In this document: positions 5,181 through 38,751 of the stretch, piece after piece
How positions within the stretch are numbered: the stretch's first letter is position 1
How the letters are laid out: each line of letters begins with the position of its first letter
Source of the DNA: Thiotrichaceae bacterium
GTDB lineage: Bacteria > Pseudomonadota > Gammaproteobacteria > Beggiatoales > Beggiatoaceae
NCBI GenBank assembly: GCA_029939505.1
Contig: JAOZSV010000013.1
Coordinates: 1 to 39,105, forward strand
Direction of reading: 5' to 3'
DNA: 39,105 bases
Translations under genes and position numbers: made by a program
Notes under the pieces: generated by a model
What the model was told of the DNA's origin: nothing
Database searches by the model: none
Seen by the model: the letters and a program-made list of their open reading frames with translations, nothing else

Positions 5181-5579
5181 ATGAAAACCAAAGCGTTAAT
5201 TAAACTCTGTCTAAAAGTGTTTCCTGAGTTACAAGCGATTTATTTATTTGGTTCCTACGATACAGAAAATGAATGGCCTAATAGCGATGTGGACATCGCT
5301 TTATTACTTCCATATCAGTTGACTAATAATTTGTATCTGACAGAACTACATCAACAGCTTGAACAGCTATATCAAAAACCGGTGGATTTGATTAATTTAA
5401 GACAAGTGACGACTGTTTTTAAAAAAGAGATTATCATGGCAGAAAGAAGGGCTTATTGTGCAGATCAATATAAAACAGATGAATTTGAAATGTTAACCTT
5501 ATCTTTTTATCAAAAATTAAATGAAGAACGACAAGAAATTCTACAAGAATTTTTTCTGACTAAAATCGCGTATGAATGA
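5181..5579 (+). CDS. mntA: MntA-type nucleotidyltransferase antitoxin
   Basis: The 132-residue protein has a minimal nucleotidyltransferase fold. The motif is complete as GSX10DXD: Gly24-Ser25, then Asp36-Val-Asp38 in NSDVDIALLL, preceded by AIYLFGSYD. In characterised MntA-HepT (type VII) pairs, MntA adds AMP units to a tyrosine of the HEPN toxin and silences it; this role is assigned by family. The hepT gene overlaps its last 8 nt, so the two are co-translated. The region just upstream is a MITE, so promoter sequences may come from that element. No close chromosomal housekeeping context is seen. Confidence 0.88.
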   Translation: MKTKALIKLCLKVFPELQAIYLFGSYDTENEWPNSDVDIALLLPYQLTNNLYLTELHQQLEQLYQKPVDLINLRQVTTVFKKEIIMAERRAYCADQYKTDEFEMLTLSFYQKLNEERQEILQEFFLTKIAYE

Positions 5580-5982
5580 CATATTAATTAATAAAGTCCA
5601 AAGTATTCAGCGTTGTGTTGCCAGGGCGAGAGAAGAATATCATTTAGCCAATGGTCATTTTAACCAAAATTATAGCCATCAAGACGCGGCCATTTTAAAT
5701 ATGATTCGTGCATCTGAACAATGTATTGACTTAGGCAGTCATATTATTAGAACTTGTAAAATCGGTATTCCTAATGAGAGTAAAGACGTTTTTCGACTTT
5801 TGGCGACAAAACAAATCATCTCTTTACCATTGGCGGATAAATTACAAAAAATGATAGGGTTTCGCAATATGGTAGTGCATGAATATCAACAAATTAATAT
5901 TGATATAGTCATTGCAGTGATTGAAACGGGTTTAGATGATCTTATTGAATTTTGTGATATTATACTCCGTACTCACGGGTAG
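5572..5982 (+). CDS. hepT: HepT-type HEPN ribonuclease toxin
   Basis: The 136-residue helical protein has the HEPN signature RX4HXY intact: Arg98, His103 and Tyr105 in FRNMVVHEYQ. The N-terminal helix starts NKVQSIQRCVARAREEY, and a middle helix reads MIRASEQCIDLGSHI, as in HepT/DUF86 proteins. HEPN toxins of this family cleave RNA when dimerised; the tyrosine is the AMPylation site used by MntA. It overlaps mntA by 8 nt. All expected active-site residues are present, so the toxin looks functional. Confidence 0.88.
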   Translation: MNDILINKVQSIQRCVARAREEYHLANGHFNQNYSHQDAAILNMIRASEQCIDLGSHIIRTCKIGIPNESKDVFRLLATKQIISLPLADKLQKMIGFRNMVVHEYQQINIDIVIAVIETGLDDLIEFCDIILRTHG

Positions 5983-6012: not shown

Positions 6013-6056
6013 ATTCGAGGTTTTCGTTTTTTTTCAAAAAAACGAAAACCTCGAAT
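6013..6056. repeat. CGAGG-stem hairpin between hepT and glgB
   Basis: Arms of 21 nt (ATTCGAGGTTTTCG plus a T-run, and its reverse complement) are perfectly paired around a 2-nt centre. It belongs to the window-wide CGAGG hairpin family. Lying between convergent hepT and glgB, it could serve as a bidirectional terminator (inference). Confidence 0.8.
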
Positions 6057-10079: not shown

Positions 10080-13007
10080 TTAGTCTTCAGATAAGTTGTT
10101 AGTTGGTTGGCTGTCTTCTTCTAGCTCAAATGTACTTACATACTCCTCAACTGTGTGCATCGCATGAAGTACAAAAGGCAGAGAAGTCCACTCTTGATAT
10201 TGTGCATAACCAAAGCGTAGGCTCTCAATAAAGCGTACTAAGGTTTCATCCGAATCATCAGGGTGCTTGTGGACAATAGCAAATTCTACTGTTTTTGGAG
10301 CGGATGCTGGTTTTGCCATTATGTCAGCGTCTGAAAAAATATGGACTGTTTTACCCTTCACTTTGGGTGCAATGTCCAAATAAGCTTTACCTGGCCCTTT
10401 TTCCGAAACTGGAAAAGCTAATTTCCGTTCCTCAAAAACACTTGAACCACGTTTGTATTGTACTGTTTTTGGTAGTGAGGCGACGGATAAAAATGTAGGG
10501 ATTTGCGTGTTTTTCACTCTAAGGAGTGTGCCTACATTTGTAGATACTGGTATCGTAACCGTTTTATCAGCGTTATCAATTTCTTGATAAACCACTTCTT
10601 TTTTTTGGCAGATACTAGGCGGAATATCAGTTCTACAACGGATAATACGAATGCCTTTCCAAGTGGATTTTTTAAAACGTTTATTACCGATTGATATATC
10701 TGTCACCATTTTTTTGTCTTGAAGCCAGTTCCAAGCATACCTGCTGTTAATATGTGTGGAATTGACAATAATGACAGCATTATGATCAATTTTGGCGGTT
10801 TCCTCAATAACGTTGTGACAAAATTTCACAATGCTATTCCCGATGTCTTGTGCTTTTGAACCGAGCGTATGTTCAGATAACCTAGAGATACTGAATAACC
10901 CTTCTGTGAAAGGCAGCCAATCCGATATTTTTGACAATTTATCCTCCCAATAAGAATATTTAATAGAGGAGTCACCGGTATAAGCATCATATCGGATAGC
11001 GGCTATTAACTTTCTACGGCTTGCAAATCGCGTTTTATTTTTGGCGATAACTGATAAACCAACAACATAGCGCGGTTTGCGTTCTTGGTTAAACAACTCA
11101 TTGATACTTTTCGGAACGGCTTCCGCATAACCACTCTGGGCAAATAAAAGATCATACAAGGCGTTCTGAATCCTCATCAGGTATTCGCCTAACTTTATTT
11201 TTCCAGTTTTGGTTGTTTCTGGGGGATTCAGATACTGAGCAGCCATGCTATCATTAGCCAGCGCCTTTTTTGTTGCTACTTTATTGAGTGGGTAATCTTT
11301 TTGCTGCTTTCCATATCTTGATTGAAACCATAGAGGTGCCTCAACCAACGCAAAAATTGGCATTGGACAAGCGTTTTTGATTTGACGGTTCGTATCAGAC
11401 CAAATTTCAACCTGAGCCTTGAGGTGTTCTTTTTGTTTGACCGCTTTTGGCTTGGTACCATAGGCAAGCTTTGGCAAATTGACTTGATACAGCTTAACAC
11501 ACTCACCAAAAAGAAGTTTTGCCATCTCCGTGATGATTTCTCGGCGTTTGCGATTTTCACCTATCACAACTAAGGTAGGACTAAAAAGACCAAATACATG
11601 GCTAATGGCACTCAGGTTGATTTTTCGCACATCATCAAGTTTGTGGATTTTCTGATTTCCTCCCTTCAACTTGTCGTAAATTTCTTCCATTTCAAATGAC
11701 AGTGCTTGTCTCAACTTATCCTTGAGTATCTCTGGACTAATTTGATCTTCTTCAACTTCTTCATCATTTTCAGTCAATCCCTCAAGAAAAGCTTGCAAAT
11801 CTATCATGGAACGTGTTGATTTTTTTATTTTGTTGGCGGGTATCTCTGTCCAATCGGTCCAAGGCACAATACCTATTTTAGATAGCGGATCAACTATCGC
11901 ATCGTAAAAAATCACCCTATCGGCGGTTGTAAAACCATGTTGGAGAGTATGCTTGTTTGGCAATTGAGTGTTGTAAACGGCTCGCGCGGCGGCATTGTCA
12001 GAGCTTAATCGACGTGCCTTCAAATCTTTAACTGTGCCATCTGTGGGCAAGTTGCAGCGTTCACTTATTCGAGAATAAACATCATCCCGAAATTCATAAA
12101 GGCCAGATTCTCTATTTTTTACTAACTCAAAAGCAAGACAACGGCCAGAGTTACCCCAATCATGAACATAGCCAGTGATGTTTTTCTTATACCCACTTTC
12201 AGGATTATCAAGAAATTTCATATTACTGTCGAGCCAACGAGTTCTGGTGAAAGTAACGGTTATGATGGGTTTGTCATAACTGGGTAGAGTCTCAACAGAG
12301 AGTTTTAAACGTAGAGAAAATTCTCCTTCTTCCATCATTAAGGGTTTAGTCATCAATTCAACAGCATTATTGCGGTATCGGCTGATAACGGGTAATAGTT
12401 TCCCCAATTTTGGATGAATAACAATCCCTGAAAGAGTCTTCAATAGCGTACTGGACAAGTCTCCAAAAAGACGTTCTAATTCATCATTATTATGAGAATT
12501 TTTATAACCATTTTGCCAATCAAAAGGGTTAATCATTTCTTGAGTTAAATTTAGCACCTTGTCTTGTGTATATAATTGATCAAGACGATCAAGTAATTGG
12601 CGATTCACATCATACTTGGTGCAAAACTTTACTAATTCTTCACTTGTTGTCCAGAGGTTGAATGACTCATTCACTTGCTGGGTGATGCTATTATTATCAG
12701 CCACCAAAAATGGTTTTGGATCTTGGCTAAAATACTTCATCCCAATATCATTAACAACACTCAGAAGGCCAGATGCTGTCGCTTCAATATCAAACCGCAG
12801 TGCGCTATAGGGAAGCTGTAAATATTTATTTTCGCTATTTTCCCTTGCTTTATTTAACATCGTCTCAAGAATGGACTTGACTGCTGATGACCAAGATAAT
12901 CGCGTGCATTCCTTCTGGTTGTGATGGAATGACGGTTCAACTGTAAAAGCAAAAGCCATTAAAGCTTTATTTTCCTTAGCTTTAGTATAAAAATGATTCA
13001 TTATCAA
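10080..13007 (-). CDS. PIWI-RE protein (prokaryotic Argonaute-like, pPIWI-RE)
   Basis: The 975-residue protein is read as pPIWI-RE from its size, layout and neighbours. The N-terminal region (about 1-430) matches the expected X module, the MID-like part is about 460-640, and an RNase H-fold PIWI-like part is about 645-960. Strand/loop pieces include RYVVGLSVIAK (646-656), AVIIVNSTHI (744-753), KGIRIIRCRTD (784-794) and VEFAIVHKHP (907-916). The family (described by Burroughs, Iyer and Aravind) is predicted to bind an oligonucleotide guide and act with a DinG-type helicase and a restriction-fold nuclease against foreign DNA; both partners are directly upstream. The residue after the first PIWI strand, where Asp sits in active Argonautes, appears to be Ser652, so slicing may be absent (alignment by eye). 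It starts 8 nt after the helicase stop. Confidence 0.8.
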   Translation of the reverse strand: MIMNHFYTKAKENKALMAFAFTVEPSFHHNQKECTRLSWSSAVKSILETMLNKARENSENKYLQLPYSALRFDIEATASGLLSVVNDIGMKYFSQDPKPFLVADNNSITQQVNESFNLWTTSEELVKFCTKYDVNRQLLDRLDQLYTQDKVLNLTQEMINPFDWQNGYKNSHNNDELERLFGDLSSTLLKTLSGIVIHPKLGKLLPVISRYRNNAVELMTKPLMMEEGEFSLRLKLSVETLPSYDKPIITVTFTRTRWLDSNMKFLDNPESGYKKNITGYVHDWGNSGRCLAFELVKNRESGLYEFRDDVYSRISERCNLPTDGTVKDLKARRLSSDNAAARAVYNTQLPNKHTLQHGFTTADRVIFYDAIVDPLSKIGIVPWTDWTEIPANKIKKSTRSMIDLQAFLEGLTENDEEVEEDQISPEILKDKLRQALSFEMEEIYDKLKGGNQKIHKLDDVRKINLSAISHVFGLFSPTLVVIGENRKRREIITEMAKLLFGECVKLYQVNLPKLAYGTKPKAVKQKEHLKAQVEIWSDTNRQIKNACPMPIFALVEAPLWFQSRYGKQQKDYPLNKVATKKALANDSMAAQYLNPPETTKTGKIKLGEYLMRIQNALYDLLFAQSGYAEAVPKSINELFNQERKPRYVVGLSVIAKNKTRFASRRKLIAAIRYDAYTGDSSIKYSYWEDKLSKISDWLPFTEGLFSISRLSEHTLGSKAQDIGNSIVKFCHNVIEETAKIDHNAVIIVNSTHINSRYAWNWLQDKKMVTDISIGNKRFKKSTWKGIRIIRCRTDIPPSICQKKEVVYQEIDNADKTVTIPVSTNVGTLLRVKNTQIPTFLSVASLPKTVQYKRGSSVFEERKLAFPVSEKGPGKAYLDIAPKVKGKTVHIFSDADIMAKPASAPKTVEFAIVHKHPDDSDETLVRFIESLRFGYAQYQEWTSLPFVLHAMHTVEEYVSTFELEEDSQPTNNLSED

Positions 13008-13015
13008 TAATCCTC

Positions 13016-16000
13016 TTAATCAGATTCAGTAAGCCCTTCAACTCGGCATAATGGTTCATAGAATTCTGCGTAGAGTTCCCGTGCAATTGCTGCATGAACT
13101 AGATTAGCATCATGTATAATTTGATGAAGAATCTCCCGCATTTGAATCAACATGCTGCTCTTGTTATTATCTATTTCTCCCAAAGCACTATGGGGTGCCC
13201 AAGCCGCATCAACAAAAAATACCCGACAGGGCATACCACCACGAATGGCGCGGCCAATCGTTTGAATAATGTCAACACAAATGTTCGCCACGAAAGGCGT
13301 AGCCAATTTGCCAAGCATACTGATTCTAAGCGGATTATTCAATAAAATTGAGGCTTGATCGTATGCGGTTTTACGTGCTTTTCGCCAAGCCTGAAATAAG
13401 TCATCCAGAGATGCATCATAGGAAAAAGTTTTGGAATCAAAATGTTGTGATGCCTGTCCCGCTAAACTCACTAAAAACGATTGATCATCAGGTGTTGGGT
13501 GTGGACGTGTTAAAAAATAGAGTTGTCCAATAGCAGCATGACGCTCACGGGAGCCTTCACTAAAAACAATATTGGTTCCGCGACCAATCGCCCTCATGGG
13601 AAATATAAGAATATTAAACTGAGGATTATCAGCAAATTCCACTTCTACCTGTGCGGAAGTAATCCACTCATGCCGCTCGCTGCTATCAGGAATGTGATCG
13701 ACTACTGCCATTGTTTGACGGTTGATTTCAGGATACCGGTCACGAATATATTGCTTAACCATTTTAGCTTGCTGATAACTATTGACGACTATGCCAACCT
13801 TTCTAGGGTGAGGTTCTGCATCAAATTCGGCCATGTAAGACAGAACATAAGAATCTTCTTCCTCCATCAAAATATGATCCACTAGGCGTTTAAGATTGGC
13901 ATCCCGTCGGCGCGTTTGAGAAACACCACTGACACGGATAGCTTCCCTTTCCGGGCCACTCTCGTCAATCGCTGGAATGAATGCATAAGTGGTTTGCTCA
14001 CGCTGTTTAGTCTCCTGTTTTCGAGGACGCAGCAAATAATCTGGCCCAATGTTAATGTGATAAGCGGAGGCTGGCTTCAAAAAAGAGGTGGCACTCGTGA
14101 GCAAAACCGCTGGCCCTTTTTCTTTAGCATCGGCATGAAGCAAATTATAAAGACGATACAAGAAAATTCTTGGCGCACCTTCAAAAGCTAATTGCTTTAC
14201 CTGAATTTTGAGTTCTGGTTTGACCTTTGAATATTCTGGTATTTCAAATTTTACACCAGCCAGTGCGCCGATAATGTTAGCGGTAGTCAGGCGCAAAATA
14301 TCAACCGGTGGTTGAGTATGCACCATTTCCGCCGGAATGCGTTCAAGTGCCACCATTTCTTTTAGGATGGGCTTGAGTGCTTTGTACGAGAGAATGGAAA
14401 AACTAATACTCACTAACAGTCTGCCAAGTTCTCTGGCGCGATGAGTGATTTCTCTCTCTTGAAAAATATAGCTTAAAAATGTCTCACTGATTTTTTCTAA
14501 GCTGTTGTCAACATGACGTGTAGGCTTGAGAACCGCCATTGAAAGACGGATTAATTTCTCATAAAGTTGCTCAGTATCTGCCGGTAATAAATTAGGTAAT
14601 TCTGGAATGCTCCCCGCTTTTAAAAGCGAAGCCATCCATTCCTCATCGCCACTTTCTTCAGCGATTTCTTCTAACTCATCATTATCGAATATAGCTAGAC
14701 AAATGATTGAAATCCAAAATCGGTTGATTTTCTCTACATCAGCATGGCTATCCTTACTTGGCTTCGCTTCCATCACAATGTCTTTGATGAGATTTAAAGT
14801 CGTCATCAAATGGCCTTTTTTCTCCTGTTGAACGCTCTCACTCAACTTAGCAATTGTCCGAAACAGGCGTTGTGTAAAAATGGAAAATGCGCTCGCCCGT
14901 TCAGGAAATTCAGGATTTTCGTTAATACGTTGCAAGCCTTGAGCAGCAGTTCGTCTTAAACTTTGCTCATTGATCCGATTGTGGAAAGAATTGGCATTAC
15001 CAGACAATGTTATTTCAGATAAAGACATTTGGTCGAGCATTTGTTGGGCATTGTCAACTTCATCAACAATAACCACATCAAAACTGGCGGCAATGAGTTC
15101 CAAATAGCGTATTTTTTCCGCAATGGCATGGGCAGAAACAGCGGTGGTTGTAGAAATAATATGACCCAGCCATACATCAGCATGAATTAAGTCACGGGGG
15201 GCTTTATTACGTCCACAACGGTACCAACCTGAACAGAGCAAGTCTTTGTAGCGTCCATTTTTGTGACGAACTGTCGCCTGATGAATATTTTCGCAAGGGG
15301 CATACCCATAAGAAAGTAAATTAGCCTCTTCTTGAGCAACCACAAATCCAGCTAAGGCACAACTTTTCCCAAAATATTCACTACCGGGGACATTCAGACC
15401 AAATCCACCATTTTCTCCGCTAGCAGCGATGGTTTCGGCAATTCTATTCGCATGGCGATCCCTTGATAAATCTGATTGTCCACTTAATAGAGAGACATTC
15501 ACTTGGTAGTATTTCAGATGATTAAGGTAACTCAGTGCGGTCTCAATTTTGGGGAACAGTATTAAAATCTTAATCTTTTTTCGGGCTAAATAAACAGCAA
15601 GACAAGTTAATAGTGTCGTTTTTCCTGAACCGGGTAATCCGATGAGATGGATAACTTCTTTAATATGTAGCGTTTTTGCCTCTGGTAACGTTGGTGCGGT
15701 CGTCTGACAGAGTACAGAATGTTCAAGTCGTCTTTGCCAATTGTTATCAGCTTTTTCTGAATCATTTTGATCCAGACGATCCATATCAATAGCGGTTTCA
15801 ATTAATTCGGCAATAGGAATTTCAATATCGTTAGTAATGTTTCTATTCAGATTGTGATGTCCTAACTCCTCAAAAGCTGGAGAGTGGACTTCAACATGTT
15901 GTGCTTCCCGATCAATCTCTATTGGAACAAGAGAATTGTTTTTCGGAGCAATGAGGGTATTTCCATGTTTTTTATAAGGCAAAGGTTGTCTTAAAATTGC

Positions 16001-16351
16001 AAGTGCTTGGGCAACTTGCGTCTCAATTAAATTAGCGGGCTTTGAAAATTTCAGGGTTTCAGGCTCGATTTCAAAGACGGCTTCAATATTTGACTGTGGA
16101 TCATCAACGGCTTCATTGTATAAAGCAACTTGCCGACGAATAGCCGCTTCAGACGGATAATCCAACCCCATAACGCGAAGGTTAAATAATGCTTGGGCTT
16201 GTTCACGAAAAAGGTCAGTTGTCAATAAACTTTGAAAACCACTGGTAATGAGTGGCACTGAATGCAATGAGTCAACACCAATACTTTCTAAAAAAGCACA
16301 AAGATACTGAATACGTGCTACGCCGGTCCACAGTTTAGGCAGTTCTCGCAT
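13016..16351 (-). CDS. DinG/XPD-like superfamily 2 helicase of the pPIWI-RE island
   Basis: The 1111-residue protein has an N-terminal unique region (about 1-220, the expected place of the island's Z domain). The helicase core follows, with Walker A GLPGSGKT at 238-245, DEVD box at 430-433, a motif III-like LLTSATSFL, and motif VI QTIGRAIRGG at 1030-1039. Four cysteines lie between Walker A and the DEVD box: Cys331, Cys353, Cys373 and Cys379. That is the location of the 4Fe-4S cluster in XPD/DinG helicases, which unwind 5' to 3' and can resolve R-loops. In pPIWI-RE islands this helicase is predicted to open the target for the PIWI and nuclease partners. It starts 2 nt after the nuclease stop codon, so translation is coupled. 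Confidence 0.85.
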   Translation of the reverse strand: MRELPKLWTGVARIQYLCAFLESIGVDSLHSVPLITSGFQSLLTTDLFREQAQALFNLRVMGLDYPSEAAIRRQVALYNEAVDDPQSNIEAVFEIEPETLKFSKPANLIETQVAQALAILRQPLPYKKHGNTLIAPKNNSLVPIEIDREAQHVEVHSPAFEELGHHNLNRNITNDIEIPIAELIETAIDMDRLDQNDSEKADNNWQRRLEHSVLCQTTAPTLPEAKTLHIKEVIHLIGLPGSGKTTLLTCLAVYLARKKIKILILFPKIETALSYLNHLKYYQVNVSLLSGQSDLSRDRHANRIAETIAASGENGGFGLNVPGSEYFGKSCALAGFVVAQEEANLLSYGYAPCENIHQATVRHKNGRYKDLLCSGWYRCGRNKAPRDLIHADVWLGHIISTTTAVSAHAIAEKIRYLELIAASFDVVIVDEVDNAQQMLDQMSLSEITLSGNANSFHNRINEQSLRRTAAQGLQRINENPEFPERASAFSIFTQRLFRTIAKLSESVQQEKKGHLMTTLNLIKDIVMEAKPSKDSHADVEKINRFWISIICLAIFDNDELEEIAEESGDEEWMASLLKAGSIPELPNLLPADTEQLYEKLIRLSMAVLKPTRHVDNSLEKISETFLSYIFQEREITHRARELGRLLVSISFSILSYKALKPILKEMVALERIPAEMVHTQPPVDILRLTTANIIGALAGVKFEIPEYSKVKPELKIQVKQLAFEGAPRIFLYRLYNLLHADAKEKGPAVLLTSATSFLKPASAYHINIGPDYLLRPRKQETKQREQTTYAFIPAIDESGPEREAIRVSGVSQTRRRDANLKRLVDHILMEEEDSYVLSYMAEFDAEPHPRKVGIVVNSYQQAKMVKQYIRDRYPEINRQTMAVVDHIPDSSERHEWITSAQVEVEFADNPQFNILIFPMRAIGRGTNIVFSEGSRERHAAIGQLYFLTRPHPTPDDQSFLVSLAGQASQHFDSKTFSYDASLDDLFQAWRKARKTAYDQASILLNNPLRISMLGKLATPFVANICVDIIQTIGRAIRGGMPCRVFFVDAAWAPHSALGEIDNNKSSMLIQMREILHQIIHDANLVHAAIARELYAEFYEPLCRVEGLTESD

Positions 16352-16353
16352 GA

Positions 16354-17493
16354 TTAAATTTCCCCTGACTGGATTGATTCGATTAAAGCACTCACAGTCA
16401 TAAATTCAAGTTCTTTGGCGGCTCCACTTTGTTGATGACGCAGTGTTGCCATGTAAACACCCTCTTTATCATCTAATTCGTCACTGATAGCGATGATTTT
16501 GCGCTCATACTCAGCAAGACGACTTATTGAGGTATTAAGACGTTTAATCAGCATCGACGCTGAGTTGTAAGACTTAGCATCAATGCCCACTGTGTTACCC
16601 TCTAAAGAAACATCACAAGCGTCAGAACTGGGATACAACTCTGCATCTCTTCCCACCTGCCGGGCCGCATCATAGATTTTAATTTCATCCAGTCCCGGGC
16701 CTACCCAATAGGTAAGTAATTGGTCTTTAAGTAGTTTCATGTCATCAGCCATGAGTGTTTCATCCGTTTTTGAAAAGACACCTTTTCGCCGGCATTGACT
16801 GACGACGCAAATACCATCAGGATAACGCTTTTTATCATGATGGGGTTTCAGCAAGCCATGACAATGAGAACATCTATGCACCAAACTATTATGATGTGTC
16901 CACTGGCTCGGAATCTCACGATAAAAAGAGGAAACAATTGGTTTTGCTTTTGGAAATTTTAGATGCTCTTTCCATTGCTCAATTTCAACAGAAGTTGCCA
17001 ACGGATGACGAACCATGAACTCACGTATTGCCGTGTACAATTCATCTTGACGAGAACGCGCCGATTTCACTAATTCACGTACTCTATTATGGTAAAAATC
17101 CTCTAAAATTTGATCCTCACCTTGTCCACCAGCTTGTCTAGCGATTTCGAGTGATTCACGAGTGGGCACCAGCGTTTCTGGATCAATCAAGATAGTCTCT
17201 TGATAAGGAAAGTTATTACTCGTAAAATAGTCAATGTCCCATTCTTTAAAGGGTCGAGTTGCCATTTCCATAACGCTATGAACTGATGCGGCTCTATCTT
17301 CTTTTCCTTCACACATATAAAGGGCTGAAAGACGTGGCAGTGCAAAAATGAGCTGTGGATCAAGTTCATCCTCGTTTTGGCAGACTATTGAAGAGTTATC
17401 TTTCAACTTCTCATATTGTTGATTGATGCCTTGTGCTAATAGAGTTATTGCCACTTCAGGTGGAGATACAAGATTATCGTAAGGTGAAGTCAT
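16354..17493 (-). CDS. PD-(D/E)xK restriction-fold nuclease of the pPIWI-RE island
   Basis: The 379-residue protein has three parts. The helical N-terminal region (about 1-195) corresponds to the Y domain expected in this island. A zinc ribbon is formed by Cys208-x2-Cys211 and Cys229-x4-Cys234. The C-terminal restriction-endonuclease fold (about 255-379) carries Glu270, Asp291/Asp294 and the catalytic Asp305-Ala-Lys307 in TVGIDAKSYNSA. The active site is complete, so DNA cleavage is likely. It is the first gene of the cluster; the region upstream contains MITE copy B, whose right and left ends lie 60-215 nt away. The family role as the effector nuclease is known from comparative genomics only. 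Confidence 0.82.
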   Translation of the reverse strand: MTSPYDNLVSPPEVAITLLAQGINQQYEKLKDNSSIVCQNEDELDPQLIFALPRLSALYMCEGKEDRAASVHSVMEMATRPFKEWDIDYFTSNNFPYQETILIDPETLVPTRESLEIARQAGGQGEDQILEDFYHNRVRELVKSARSRQDELYTAIREFMVRHPLATSVEIEQWKEHLKFPKAKPIVSSFYREIPSQWTHHNSLVHRCSHCHGLLKPHHDKKRYPDGICVVSQCRRKGVFSKTDETLMADDMKLLKDQLLTYWVGPGLDEIKIYDAARQVGRDAELYPSSDACDVSLEGNTVGIDAKSYNSASMLIKRLNTSISRLAEYERKIIAISDELDDKEGVYMATLRHQQSGAAKELEFMTVSALIESIQSGEI

Positions 17494-18062: not shown

Positions 18063-18260
18063 TATAGACGTTCAGATAAATCATTTCACAAGGGCGAACA
18101 CACAGGATTCGATTCGAGGTTCAAGTTATAGAAAAAACTTGAACCTCGAATTTCGTTTTTCTTCAAAAAACGAAAACCTCGAATGCCCCTACGTCAAACA
18201 AATATGGTAGGGGCATACCTGTCCCTGCCCTTTCTGAAATGATTTATCTGAACGTCTATA
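18063..18260. mobile_element. 198-bp element with perfect 25-bp terminal inverted repeats (TATAGACGTTCAG...)
   Basis: Positions 18063-18087 and 18236-18260 are exact reverse complements. The interior holds two CGAGG-family hairpins in series (about 18113-18185), the second lacking its left CGAGG arm, and a GTAGGGGCATACC tract. There is no coding capacity. A fragment of the same end occurs at about 23340-23364. Confidence 0.75.
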
Positions 18261-18429
18261 GACTTTCAGGTAAATAACTTCAAAAAACCTGTCAGGTATT
18301 CAAGACCTGACAGGTTATCGTGTGATCGAGGCTAAAGTTTTTTGAATTCGAGGTTTTAGTTTTTTTTTTCAAAAAACTAAAACCTCGAAAAACTTTTAGC
18401 CTCGATCGTTATTTTTCTGAATATCTATA
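18257..18429. mobile_element. Second element with related TATAGAC...TTCAG ends, abutting the first
   Basis: The left end TATAGACTTTCAGGTAAAT shares its TATA with the right end of the preceding element. The right end (ending 18429) is an imperfect reverse complement. It contains an AACCTGTCAGGT palindrome (18286-18316) and the nested hairpin at 18324-18407. Confidence 0.55.
18324..18407. repeat. Hairpin inserted in the loop of another hairpin
   Basis: The outer arms GATCGAGGCTAAAGTTTTT and their complement enclose a complete inner CGAGGTTTTAGTTTTT hairpin (about 18347-18389). Both arms of each stem pair separately. Confidence 0.8.
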
Positions 18430-18501: not shown

Positions 18502-18543
18502 TTCGAGGCTAAAGTTTTTCTTTAAAAAAACTTTAGCCTCGAA
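18502..18543. repeat. CGAGGCTAAAG-type hairpin downstream of the TPR/RodZ-like gene
   Basis: TTCGAGGCTAAAGTTTTT pairs with AAAAACTTTAGCCTCGAA. It lies just past the stop codon of the minus-strand gene starting at 20490 and could end its transcript. Just upstream (about 18434-18482) is a GAAGCGTTGGACTCC repeat unit. Confidence 0.8.
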
Positions 18544-20617: not shown

Positions 20618-20659
20618 GACGAGGATAACGTTTTTTTTCAAAAAAACGTTATCCTCGTC
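20618..20659. repeat. CGAGGATAACG-type hairpin
   Basis: GACGAGGATAACGTTTTTT pairs perfectly with its complement; the stem word differs from other family members but both arms changed together. It lies in a 600-nt gene-free stretch (20491-21090). Confidence 0.85.
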
Positions 20660-23195: not shown

Positions 23196-23339
23196 ATGAA
23201 CCTATCGAGCCTATTCAAAAATGCGGAACAATGAATAAAAATCGTTTGGTTTTTAACCAAAAAACGAGGGTTAAGAAATCCGATTTTTTGAAAAAATCGG
23301 ATTTCTGATCTGCGAAAATGAATAGTGGGATAGGTTCAT
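23196..23339. mobile_element. MITE copy 1, TIR ATGAACCTATC..CCTATTC
   Basis: The left end ATGAACCTATCGAGCCTATT (from 23196) pairs with the right end AATAGTGGGATAGGTTCAT (ending 23339). The interior has a CGTTTGGTTTTTAACC-type hairpin and the AGAAATCCGATTTTTT palindrome (23274-23306). The same end and interior palindrome recur at 31250-31379. Confidence 0.75.
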
Positions 23340-23757: not shown

Positions 23758-23936
23758 GTTCTTGCCAAACTCTGAACACACGAGGTTTAAGAAATCCGAT
23801 TTTTGAAAAAAATCGGATTTCTAAATCTAAACTCGAAAAAGCGAGTTTTGCAAGAGGATCGAGGTTCAATTTTTTTTCAAAAAACTCAAGTCGAGGCGCT
23901 AACGTTTTTTCTTTAAAAAAACGTTAGCCTCGACTC
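23758..23936. repeat. Compound hairpin block between thiS and the nucleotidyltransferase gene
   Basis: TTAAGAAATCCGATTTTT and its complement (about 23787-23824) sit inside an outer CTTGCCAAACTC / GAGTTTTGCAAG pair. Two CGAGG hairpins follow: one with mismatched arms (CGAGGTTCAA against CTCAAGTCGAG, about 23869-23895) and one of CTAACG type (about 23891-23934). The first part is an inverted copy of 29520-29585. Confidence 0.75.
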
Positions 23937-23944
23937 GAAAACAG

Positions 23945-29357: not shown

Positions 29358-29573
29358 ATTTTTGGGAGTTCAACGCTTTAGCTTTGGGCTTTTTTTTTCC
29401 GCGTTTTTGGGAGTTCAACGCTTTAGCTTTGGGCTTTTTTTTCCGAACTGAGAAATCCGATTTTTTTTTCAAAAATCGGATTTCTTAAACCTCGTGCGTT
29501 TTTTTTTTCGAACTGAGAAATCCGATTTTTTTCAAAAATCGGATTTCTTAAACCTCGTGTGTTCAGAATTTTG
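29358..29573. repeat. Tandem repeat block downstream of gspD
   Basis: Two GGGAGTTCAACGCTTTAGC units (about 29362 and 29410), each followed by a T-run, precede two direct copies of a hairpin cassette (from about 29445 and 29510). Each cassette reads CGAACTGAGAAATCCG, a T-run, its complement, then TTAAACCTCGTG. The first T-rich stem could terminate the gspFD transcript. Confidence 0.8.
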
Positions 29574-30901: not shown

Positions 30902-31234
30902 CCACGCTCCAGCATCAATGCCATTAAGTTAAGGGCGAACGCCGGTTCGCCCCTACACAGAATACGCGGCGTTTTGTAGGGGCAGACCTGTGTGTCTGCC
31001 CTTAACTTAATATGCGAATTAAGAGTTGAATTTAAAAAAAAATGGAGTACATTCGAGGTTTGAGTTTTTCTTCAAAAAACTCAAGTCGAGGTTAAAGTTT
31101 TTTTAAAGAAAAAACTTTAACCTCGACTCTCGAATGCTTCAGCTTTGTCCGTCCAAAAAACGCCCAAAGCTGAAGCGTTGGACTCCTATCTTAACTCTTA
31201 ATTCGCATTTAATGGCTTTGACGCTGGAGCGTGG
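30902..31234. mobile_element. 333-bp compound element of nested inverted repeats
   Basis: The outer arms CCACGCTCCAGC...GCCATTA (30902-30926) and their near-complement (31210-31234) match at about 23 of 25 positions. Inside lie an 89-bp unit with ATTAAGTTAAGGGC ends (30923-31011) and a 199-bp unit with TGCGAATTAAGAGTT ends (about 31012-31210). The latter holds CGAGG hairpins (31053-31128) and a GAAGCGTTGGACTCC repeat (about 31160-31187). No gene lies between 30856 and 31414. Confidence 0.7.
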
Positions 31235-31249
31235 GACGATGGGAATGCT

Positions 31250-31379
31250 ATGAACCTATCCCGCCTATTCTTTTTTGAGCTTAGAAATCCGATTTTTTGA
31301 AAAAATCGGATTTCTTAAACCGATTGTCAAAAACCAAAATTATGTTCAACATTTTTTGAATAGGGCCGGATAGGTTCAT
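31250..31379. mobile_element. MITE copy 2, TIR ATGAACCTATCC.GCCTATTC
   Basis: The ends (from 31250, and to 31379) are near-perfect inverted repeats and match copy 1 at 23196-23339. The interior carries the identical AGAAATCCGATTTTTT palindrome at 31283-31315 but differs elsewhere. Confidence 0.78.
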
Positions 31380-31414: not shown

Positions 31415-31867
31415 TCAAGTAACTATAAATCGTGATTGAGTATAACGATGAATACGTTCAATCGCATTAAAAAGTGCTGGGCAAAGCGGCATAACCGCAT
31501 TAAATATTGTTACCATGGCAGTTGGATCATATTCATGTACAATAAGATTTCTTAATTCACGAATATCTACAAATGTTTCGGCACTGGAAATTAACCCTTT
31601 TTTTTCTGCGCGATTAATATGATCTCTTACTGTTCCTTGTTCTTCCAAATCTAGTTGATCAATGAGTCTAAACATTTTTTGAATAATCAAATCACTGAGC
31701 CGTGCAAAACGACTGGTTAATGATTCAAAATGTTCTAATTCATCAAATGTATAATTCTCCTTATTTTCCAATGCTTGACAACGTTGATAAGAAAAACGCA
31801 GATGTTCTGTCGCTTTATCCATCAATGCCAATTCAGCCTGTAATAATAACAATTGTTTTTGTTTCAT
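31415..31867 (-). CDS. HepT-like HEPN toxin, second pair
   Basis: The 150-residue helical protein has RX4HXY intact: Arg106, His111 and Tyr113 in LRNLIVHEYDP. The N-terminal helices (LLLLQAELALMDKATEHLRFSYQRCQ) and a SRFARLSDLIIQKMF helix match HepT-family architecture. The gene overlaps the upstream nucleotidyltransferase gene by 4 nt (ATGA). It is longer than and only distantly similar to the first HepT (5572-5982), so this is an independent acquisition rather than a duplication. The predicted role is an RNase toxin inactivated by AMPylation of the motif tyrosine. Confidence 0.82.
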   Translation of the reverse strand: MKQKQLLLLQAELALMDKATEHLRFSYQRCQALENKENYTFDELEHFESLTSRFARLSDLIIQKMFRLIDQLDLEEQGTVRDHINRAEKKGLISSAETFVDIRELRNLIVHEYDPTAMVTIFNAVMPLCPALFNAIERIHRYTQSRFIVT

Positions 31868-32145
31868 AATAATAGTGCTTCTTCAAGCGCAATTGAAATA
31901 AAAGGTTTTGAAATATCTTGGGCAATAATTAAATCAATCTTTTGTTCCCCAATTAATTCATAAAGCATTGTTTTAATTCGTATTTTTTCAGTCAATCCTA
32001 AATTTTTTGATAAAACCAATAAATCAATATCTCCTCCCTTTTTGCTATTATTAACTCGCGAGCCAAATAGATAAATTGCTGCCTTTGGATCAAAATGATG
32101 AATGGTTTGTGTAATGTGATGTTGTTCTTTTAAGCTGAGACGCAT
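31864..32145 (-). CDS. MntA-like nucleotidyltransferase antitoxin, second pair
   Basis: Minimal nucleotidyltransferase with Gly28-Ser29 and Asp39-Ile-Asp41 (YLFGSRVNNSKKGGDIDLLVL), a GSX9DXD spacing that is common in this subfamily. I start at the ATG at 32145 (93 residues, MRLSLKEQHH), because proteins of this type usually begin MRLS/MRLT; a TTG ten codons upstream (32175) is possible. It overlaps the HepT-like gene by 4 nt. It probably AMPylates that toxin. The region upstream holds a CGAGG hairpin and a MITE. Confidence 0.82.
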   Translation of the reverse strand: MRLSLKEQHHITQTIHHFDPKAAIYLFGSRVNNSKKGGDIDLLVLSKNLGLTEKIRIKTMLYELIGEQKIDLIIAQDISKPFISIALEEALLL

Positions 32146-32343
32146 TGATGTATTTGATTGGACAGGATTTTTCAAGGTTAAAGCGTTTAAAAAAACTTTG
32201 AACTTTTAACAATACCTTCGCCAATTCACCTACTAAATAATAAGGTTATTATGCAATTTTTGTTAAATTTCAAATACTTATAGTATTTTAAAACCCAATT
32301 GAGCTGATTTTAAATCTCGTTGATTTTAAAGCGTTTTTTTAAT

Positions 32344-32388
32344 ATTCGAGGCTAAAGTTTTTTCTTTAAAAAAACTTTAGCCTCGAAT
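32344..32388. repeat. CGAGGCTAAAG-type hairpin
   Basis: ATTCGAGGCTAAAGTTTTTT pairs perfectly with its complement around a short centre. The stem is the same type as 18502-18543. The surrounding 32176-32690 stretch shows no gene. Confidence 0.85.
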
Positions 32389-38502: not shown

Positions 38503-38629
38503 CAGCCAGGTAGGGTGGGCAAACAAAAAGACGTGTGCAACGGCATTTCTATAAACCTCTTTTTCAGGGTAAATCTCTTGGTATTTTAACGTTTTGCCGT
38601 TGCACCAAAAAGACGTTTTCGATTCGAGT

Positions 38630-38740
38630 CGAGGCTAACGTTTTTTTTGAAAAAAAAAACGTTAGCCTCGACTAAAGTTTTTTTGAAGAAAAAACTTTAG
38701 CCTCGAATTTAGTTTTTTGAAAAAAAACGAAAACCTCGAA
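38630..38740. repeat. Chain of three CGAGG hairpins
   Basis: A full CTAACG hairpin is followed by CTAAAG and TTTTCG hairpins whose left CGAGG arm is missing or shared with the preceding right arm. This is the longest chain of the family in the window. Confidence 0.8.
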
Positions 38741-38751
38741 ACCACCCTACC

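Follow-up and report, generated by a model that had tools for sequence, protein, structure and literature searches.

Covarying CGAGG hairpins of a Thiomargarita genome as probable copies of an ultra-short mobile palindrome

Introduction

The window analysed here, positions 1-39,105 of contig JAOZSV010000013.1, comes from the 5.6-Mb draft metagenome assembly of a Thiomargarita (Beggiatoaceae) and carries a family of short hairpins that keep CGAGG and a run of T, while a word in the stem changes from site to site together with its complement in the opposite arm. How do the two arms stay matched, and how did the hairpins reach the places where they lie? The hairpins have moved, they follow a target rule and they nest in one another. 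Our reading, to which we assign a probability of about 0.7, is that they are copies of an ultra-short mobile palindrome that inserts at a dyad target, replaces 3 nt of it, and has its arms matched by foldback copying. The statistics below were obtained from about 0.6 Mb (597 kb) of the source genome and about 0.2 Mb of a sister species that is ~96-97% identical (G002), both draft metagenome assemblies, which amount to about 0.8 Mb together.

Results

Hairpin anatomy and the nine sites of the window

A first-pass annotation of the window had listed nine hairpins. All are present near the positions it gave, and their folding is much stronger than that of shuffled DNA, with stems of 17-20 bp and folding z-scores of -6.6 to -10 against dinucleotide shuffles, but five of the sites are hairpins inside hairpins, which it had overlooked. 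The element is palindromic and non-coding, measures ~40-46 nt, and is laid out as (N)TTCGAGG, a 6-nt word, T5..8, a short loop, A5..8, the complementary word and CCTCGAA(N'). CGAGG and the T-run are indeed kept, as had been noted; what had escaped attention is that the T-run is the apical part of the 5' arm, within the stem and paired with the A-run, and does not lie 3' of the 3' arm. The sites are as follows (no strand is assigned).

6013..6056: hairpin with the word TTTTCG and ends ATTCGAGG...CCTCGAAT
18107..18184: nested pair, an outer TTTTCG hairpin whose 5' arm has an inner TTCAAG hairpin (18112-18151) in place of its GGT
18325..18406: nested pair, an inner TTTTAG hairpin (18347-18389) in the loop of an outer CTAAAG / CTTTTAG hairpin
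18502..18543: hairpin with the word CTAAAG, within CACCATT-type tandem heptamers
20618..20659: hairpin with the word ATAACG and variant ends GACGAGG...CCTCGTC, so that the end pairs co-vary as well
23859..23939: nested pair, a decayed outer hairpin (..CTCAA / TCGAA) whose 3' arm holds the inner GTCGAGGCGCTAACG...CGTTAGCCTCGAC (23890-23934)
~31052..31134: nested pair, an inner TTAAAG hairpin (GTCGAGG..CCTCGAC) in the 3' arm of an outer TTTGAG hairpin
32344..32388: hairpin with the word CTAAAG
~38617..38741: apparent triple nest, with CTAACG as the innermost hairpin (38628-38672), CTAAAG as the middle one (to ~38708) and TTTTAG/TTTTCG as the outermost

Unnested paralogous copies of the outer hairpin at 31052..31134 keep ..CTCAAACCTCGAATGC.., and the three nesting levels at 38617-38741 are assigned by reading the sequence. 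An Rfam scan of the window returned two tRNAs and nothing else.

Hairpins replace three nucleotides of their target

The hairpin at 6013..6056 has a paralogous empty site, AAAGG-TTT-GGACTCC, which indicates that a 3-nt window was replaced. Searching the fetched DNA for equal flanks without a hairpin, we found an empty site for 86 of 202 hairpins, corresponding to 64 distinct site families. Measured from the TTCGAGG..CCTCGAA core, the empty site had a gap of 3 nt in 17 of the 23 families whose next bases are unpaired, and in the 41 families whose next bases are paired it was 1 nt in 26 and 3 nt in 7. With the extra terminal pair counted as inserted, 50 of the 64 families have lost 3 nt of the target, where a miniature inverted-repeat transposable element (MITE) would show a target-site duplication. 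Among 1010 trials with control windows shifted by 90-400 nt, 23 families arose by chance, and no gap of 1 or 3 was seen in these.

In 28 of the 30 families with the extra terminal pair, a base of this pair is identical to the target base on its own side; for 11 of the 30 this holds of both bases. Permuting the targets gave means of 17.2 and 4.0, respectively, and the observed values were never reached in 20,000 permutations. Most simply read, the hairpin retains one base of the target on one side and gains the complement of that base, by copying, on the other.

The same junctions were seen in species-specific insertions with unique orthologous flanks: GTC became G-hairpin-C in a reading frame of the sister species, and in the source genome GAC became G-hairpin-C and TGA was replaced by a hairpin. 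Separately, hairpins were noted in two likely genes (L064:3210 and L163:11818), the first of which has 42 nt in place of 3 (net +39, in frame) and recalls the palindromic elements of Rickettsia.

Many copies lie within larger repeats (GGAGTCC..GCTTTAG, CACCATT heptamers), as they would if the hairpins were inert and larger MITEs or tandem repeats were their sole means of spread. These repeats are also found hairpin-free, and where they do have a hairpin it sits at one of two internal positions and its word varies; this view has to face the insertions with unique flanks too; we regard it as very improbable.

The target is a dyad that the element itself contains

At a set distance from CGAGG, the flanks on both sides carry the half-site A-n-W-S (A in 65%, W in 82%, a base other than T in 96%), and both half-sites are found in 28% of 163 unique flank pairs compared to 1.7% of control positions. 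Because these flanks occur in empty sites too, A-n-W-S belongs to the target and not to the element. Two junction classes are distinguished, in which the target half-sites stand 5 or 7 nt apart and the product keeps the same register. Nested or abutting copies account for 30 of 251, many of them at one arm position, and since the element's own arm (..ACTGAA-ACC-TCGAAT..) fits the target motif, copies nest in copies.

Larger tandem repeats (~192-bp period; L018:152-536 and similar) and GGAGTCCAACGCTTTAGC arrays fill intergenic DNA and act as hairpin targets. Some CGAGG hairpins are in turn split near the loop by inserted segments (L087:1750-1945, L093:891-1059, L026:865-1227) bounded by GTAACTACTCAG..CTGAGTAGTTAC or TTGTACAGGACA..TGTCCTGTACAA, and other MITE-like elements thus seem to use the A/T-rich apex of the hairpin as a target.

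The arms covary, and copying between them is the best fit

In the 597 kb of the source genome the 6-nt word is matched between the arms in 177 of 201 hairpins (88%), compared to a mean of 24.4 matches (12%) and a maximum of 42 when the arm words are shuffled. The independent arm variation that would have spoken against the proposed covariation was therefore not seen. The matched stem words number 22, each of them one step away from another, and mismatches between arms are mixed in type, with G-A as frequent as G-T. We had considered a G-U bias among the mismatches as a sign of selection on RNA, and dropped it since the mixed mismatches and the strand ambiguity make a G-U count uninformative. 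One-step mismatches make up a larger share in a low-copy congener (G001), where 8 of 23 hairpins have differing but closely related arm words (e.g. TTTCAG vs TTTCCG), as if homogenisation or transposition had slowed there. These imperfect copies indicate that arms diverge by single changes, and new matched words likely arise from changes in a single arm.

The alternative offered with the covariation, selection for the paired structure or arm-to-arm copying, is best answered by the latter, given the 28 of 30 families with a terminal pair copied from the target, and a loop that has inverted in place at an orthologous site. The site is the pair L066:15708 / L160:6947, where the loop reads CTTC in one copy and GAAG in the other, while the word and the unpaired end bases are equal and the flanks are unique sequence, 97-98% identical. 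Template switching between the arms of inverted repeats is known to yield two products, an inverted spacer and homogenised arms (PMC8604942). A further candidate, an in-place word change between L033:4941 (TTTGAG) and L120 (CTAAAG), was dropped: the flanks differ as well, and two separate insertions are equally likely.

Could template switching alone then account for the family, with no transposition enzyme, if a polymerase at a fork copied the hairpin elsewhere and then returned? Both products are established for this process (PMC8604942, PMC8794818), and the loop inversion and the copied terminal pair are compatible with it. The fixed 3-nt window and the dyad target motif, however, point to sequence recognition and cutting, and repeated microhomology at the joins was not noticed, although no formal test of it was made. 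We hold this explanation to be unlikely.

The strong covariation could also be taken as the mark of intrinsic, bidirectional terminators whose pairing is kept by selection on RNA; the first-pass annotation had named terminators as one possible role. The stems are strong, with a G+C foot and T-tracts, the hairpins are very stable as RNA, and a simple terminator scan flags a few of them. However, the T-run lies within the stem, and the 3' arm ends in CCTCGAA, after which varied target DNA follows and nothing T-rich. Gene contexts do not fit either: the 140 intergenic copies lie in tandem (54+36), divergent (30) and convergent (20) settings, like random intergenic bases, their distances to stop codons show no peak, 15 of 185 copies lie inside open reading frames (ORFs), and some are missing from the orthologous sites of near relatives. 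A terminator function is thus highly unlikely. More generally, strong arm covariation need not imply selection on RNA structure, since copying between arms at the DNA level can yield it.

Recent, lineage-limited multiplication

The LpxK protein of the window matches metagenome-assembled genomes labelled Thiomargarita, at best with 97%, and G002 contains the matched contig in identical form, which makes G002 'Thiomargarita sp. isolate RS_2_10' and the window that of a congener. Genome-wide, a restricted hairpin pattern gave 542 matches and a looser one 991, while the reversed control pattern gave 0. With the loose pattern the sister species has 635 copies, the third congener (G001) 23, and 22 further genera of the family 0-16; the other families of this class, represented by 366 genomes, had none. 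The expansion is a recent multiplication limited to this lineage. The exact hairpin pattern was not found in the viral contigs checked as possible carriers.

Hundreds of short intergenic palindromes recall repetitive extragenic palindromes (REP) and REPINs, which are moved in trans by a REP-associated tyrosine transposase (RAYT), a Y1 enzyme that inserts single-stranded hairpins, and the source genome has three Y1_Tnp genes, two of them RAYT-like by reading. In the 10-16 kb of DNA around each of the three, though, no CGAGG hairpin lies within 4 kb of the gene, and across relatives the number of Y1_Tnp genes does not track that of hairpins: one relative with 7 genes has 0 hairpins. To our knowledge, the loss of 3 target nucleotides is not expected of IS200/IS605-type insertion, and it counts against such a route. 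The stems, moreover, are perfect and end in TTCGAGG rather than in the GTAG/CGTC tags of PMC3733652; no GTAG or CGTC tag was seen beside the stem, where the flank table shows A-n-W-S and TT only. The suggestion that these are substrates of a REP-type transposase is therefore not borne out, and we consider it improbable.

A proposed mechanism and the points that weigh against it

The target of the hairpins consists of two half-sites, A-n-W-S and its complement, around a 3-nt centre. On insertion these 3 nt are lost and TTCGAGG-word-T5..loop..A5-word'-CCTCGAA is put in their stead, usually with one extra terminal base pair that sets a base of the former target against a complementary one. A putative, probably dimeric enzyme would recognise the dyad and open the window, and the moving form may be single-stranded DNA or RNA folded up as the hairpin. 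One arm would template the other at insertion, and again at replication, so that the two arms would come to share any change made in one of them, and families of new words could spread. Foldback copying of this kind may lie behind all the matched changes.

Tentatively, and with somewhat less than even confidence, we propose that this would be a distinct mode of transposition. A window of 3 nt at the dyad motif would be opened by a putative dimeric nuclease or recombinase and filled by a hairpin in single-stranded form, and foldback synthesis would give the other side a copy of one arm and of one target base. If so, each transposition would rebuild a perfect palindrome and make single-arm mutations matched.

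Several points weigh against our reading. No enzyme that could move the hairpins was found, nor any gene-sized element with the hairpin's ends in the ~0.8 Mb searched; 14 of the 64 families depart from the 3-nt rule; and most empty sites are paralogous repeats, in some of which divergence may have altered the ancestral target triplet. Copying between arms was seen directly in one in-place event only, the matched words could in part be inherited from matched founders, and copies with one mismatched arm exist, which means that matching is not instantaneous.

Any mechanism must explain the 3-nt replacement, the templated terminal pair and the dyad target. At ~40 nt these elements are perhaps the smallest mobile DNA, and an exact, testable junction rule can be drawn here from roughly 1000 copies that are nearly identical, from a very closely related sister species and from the dozens of empty sites paired with filled ones.

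Other features of the window and of the source genome

A second abundant hairpin family, AGAAATCCGATTTTT..AAAAATCGGATTTCT, has the same T-run/A-run apex and an invariant stem, with 79 copies in ~0.8 Mb. In the junction test it gave one empty site only, with a gap of 2, and other palindrome families of the source genome gave very few empty sites. The window also holds two toxin-antitoxin pairs and part of a defence island, to which large ORFs probably belong as well.

23274-23306, 31283-31315, 29451-29485, 29516-29548 and 23787-23825: hairpins of the second family
5181-5982 and 31415-32175: two MNT/HepT-type nucleotidyltransferase toxin-antitoxin pairs
16354-17493: pPIWI_RE-associated restriction endonuclease (REase) and domain Y protein, belonging to a pPIWI_RE defence island
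10080-16351: large ORFs, probably in the same pPIWI_RE defence island

Comparison with known systems

REP and REPIN elements with their RAYT (PMC3116915, PMC2817692, PMC3733652) resemble the CGAGG hairpins as short, abundant, mostly intergenic palindromes, and differ in that here no RAYT neighbour and no GTAG/CGTC tag were found, the stems are perfect, arm words are many and 3 nt of the target are lost. Template switching at quasipalindromes (PMC8604942, PMC8794818) shares the arm homogenisation and the spacer inversion, but it is a mutation process at existing inverted repeats and alone leaves new insertions at a motif unexplained. The GC clusters and double-hairpin elements of mitochondria (PMC4478555; Paquin et al. 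2000 via PMC7218506) are likewise optional, ultra-short hairpins that carry no gene and have no known mover; in contrast to them, the target here is lost and not duplicated. Many palindromic repeats and MITEs have been reported in Thiomargarita nelsonii (PMC4853749); unlike the CGAGG hairpins, those MITEs carry terminal repeats and are flanked by direct repeats, and the CGAGG family is not described in the portion of that article examined.

The nearest known kind is the small dispersed repeats (SDR) of cyanobacteria. The described SDR elements are cyanobacterial. Those of Nostoc and its relatives, reportedly set out by Elhai et al. in 2008, are said to be non-coding, tens of bases long, recently mobile and nested in themselves, with compensatory changes in their structure, and to occur in heptamer tandem repeats and mini-transposons. 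The CGAGG hairpins are alike in their size (<~50 nt), dispersal, recent mobility, lack of a gene, compensatory changes, nested copies and residence in heptamer repeats. They differ from this reported description in organism and sequence, and in the perfect palindrome, the ~22 stem words, the 3-nt replacement, the templated terminal pair and the dyad target. A precise insertion point is given for SDR5 in PMC4390886. As far as the accessible literature shows, the junction rule and the dyad target of the CGAGG hairpins are new.
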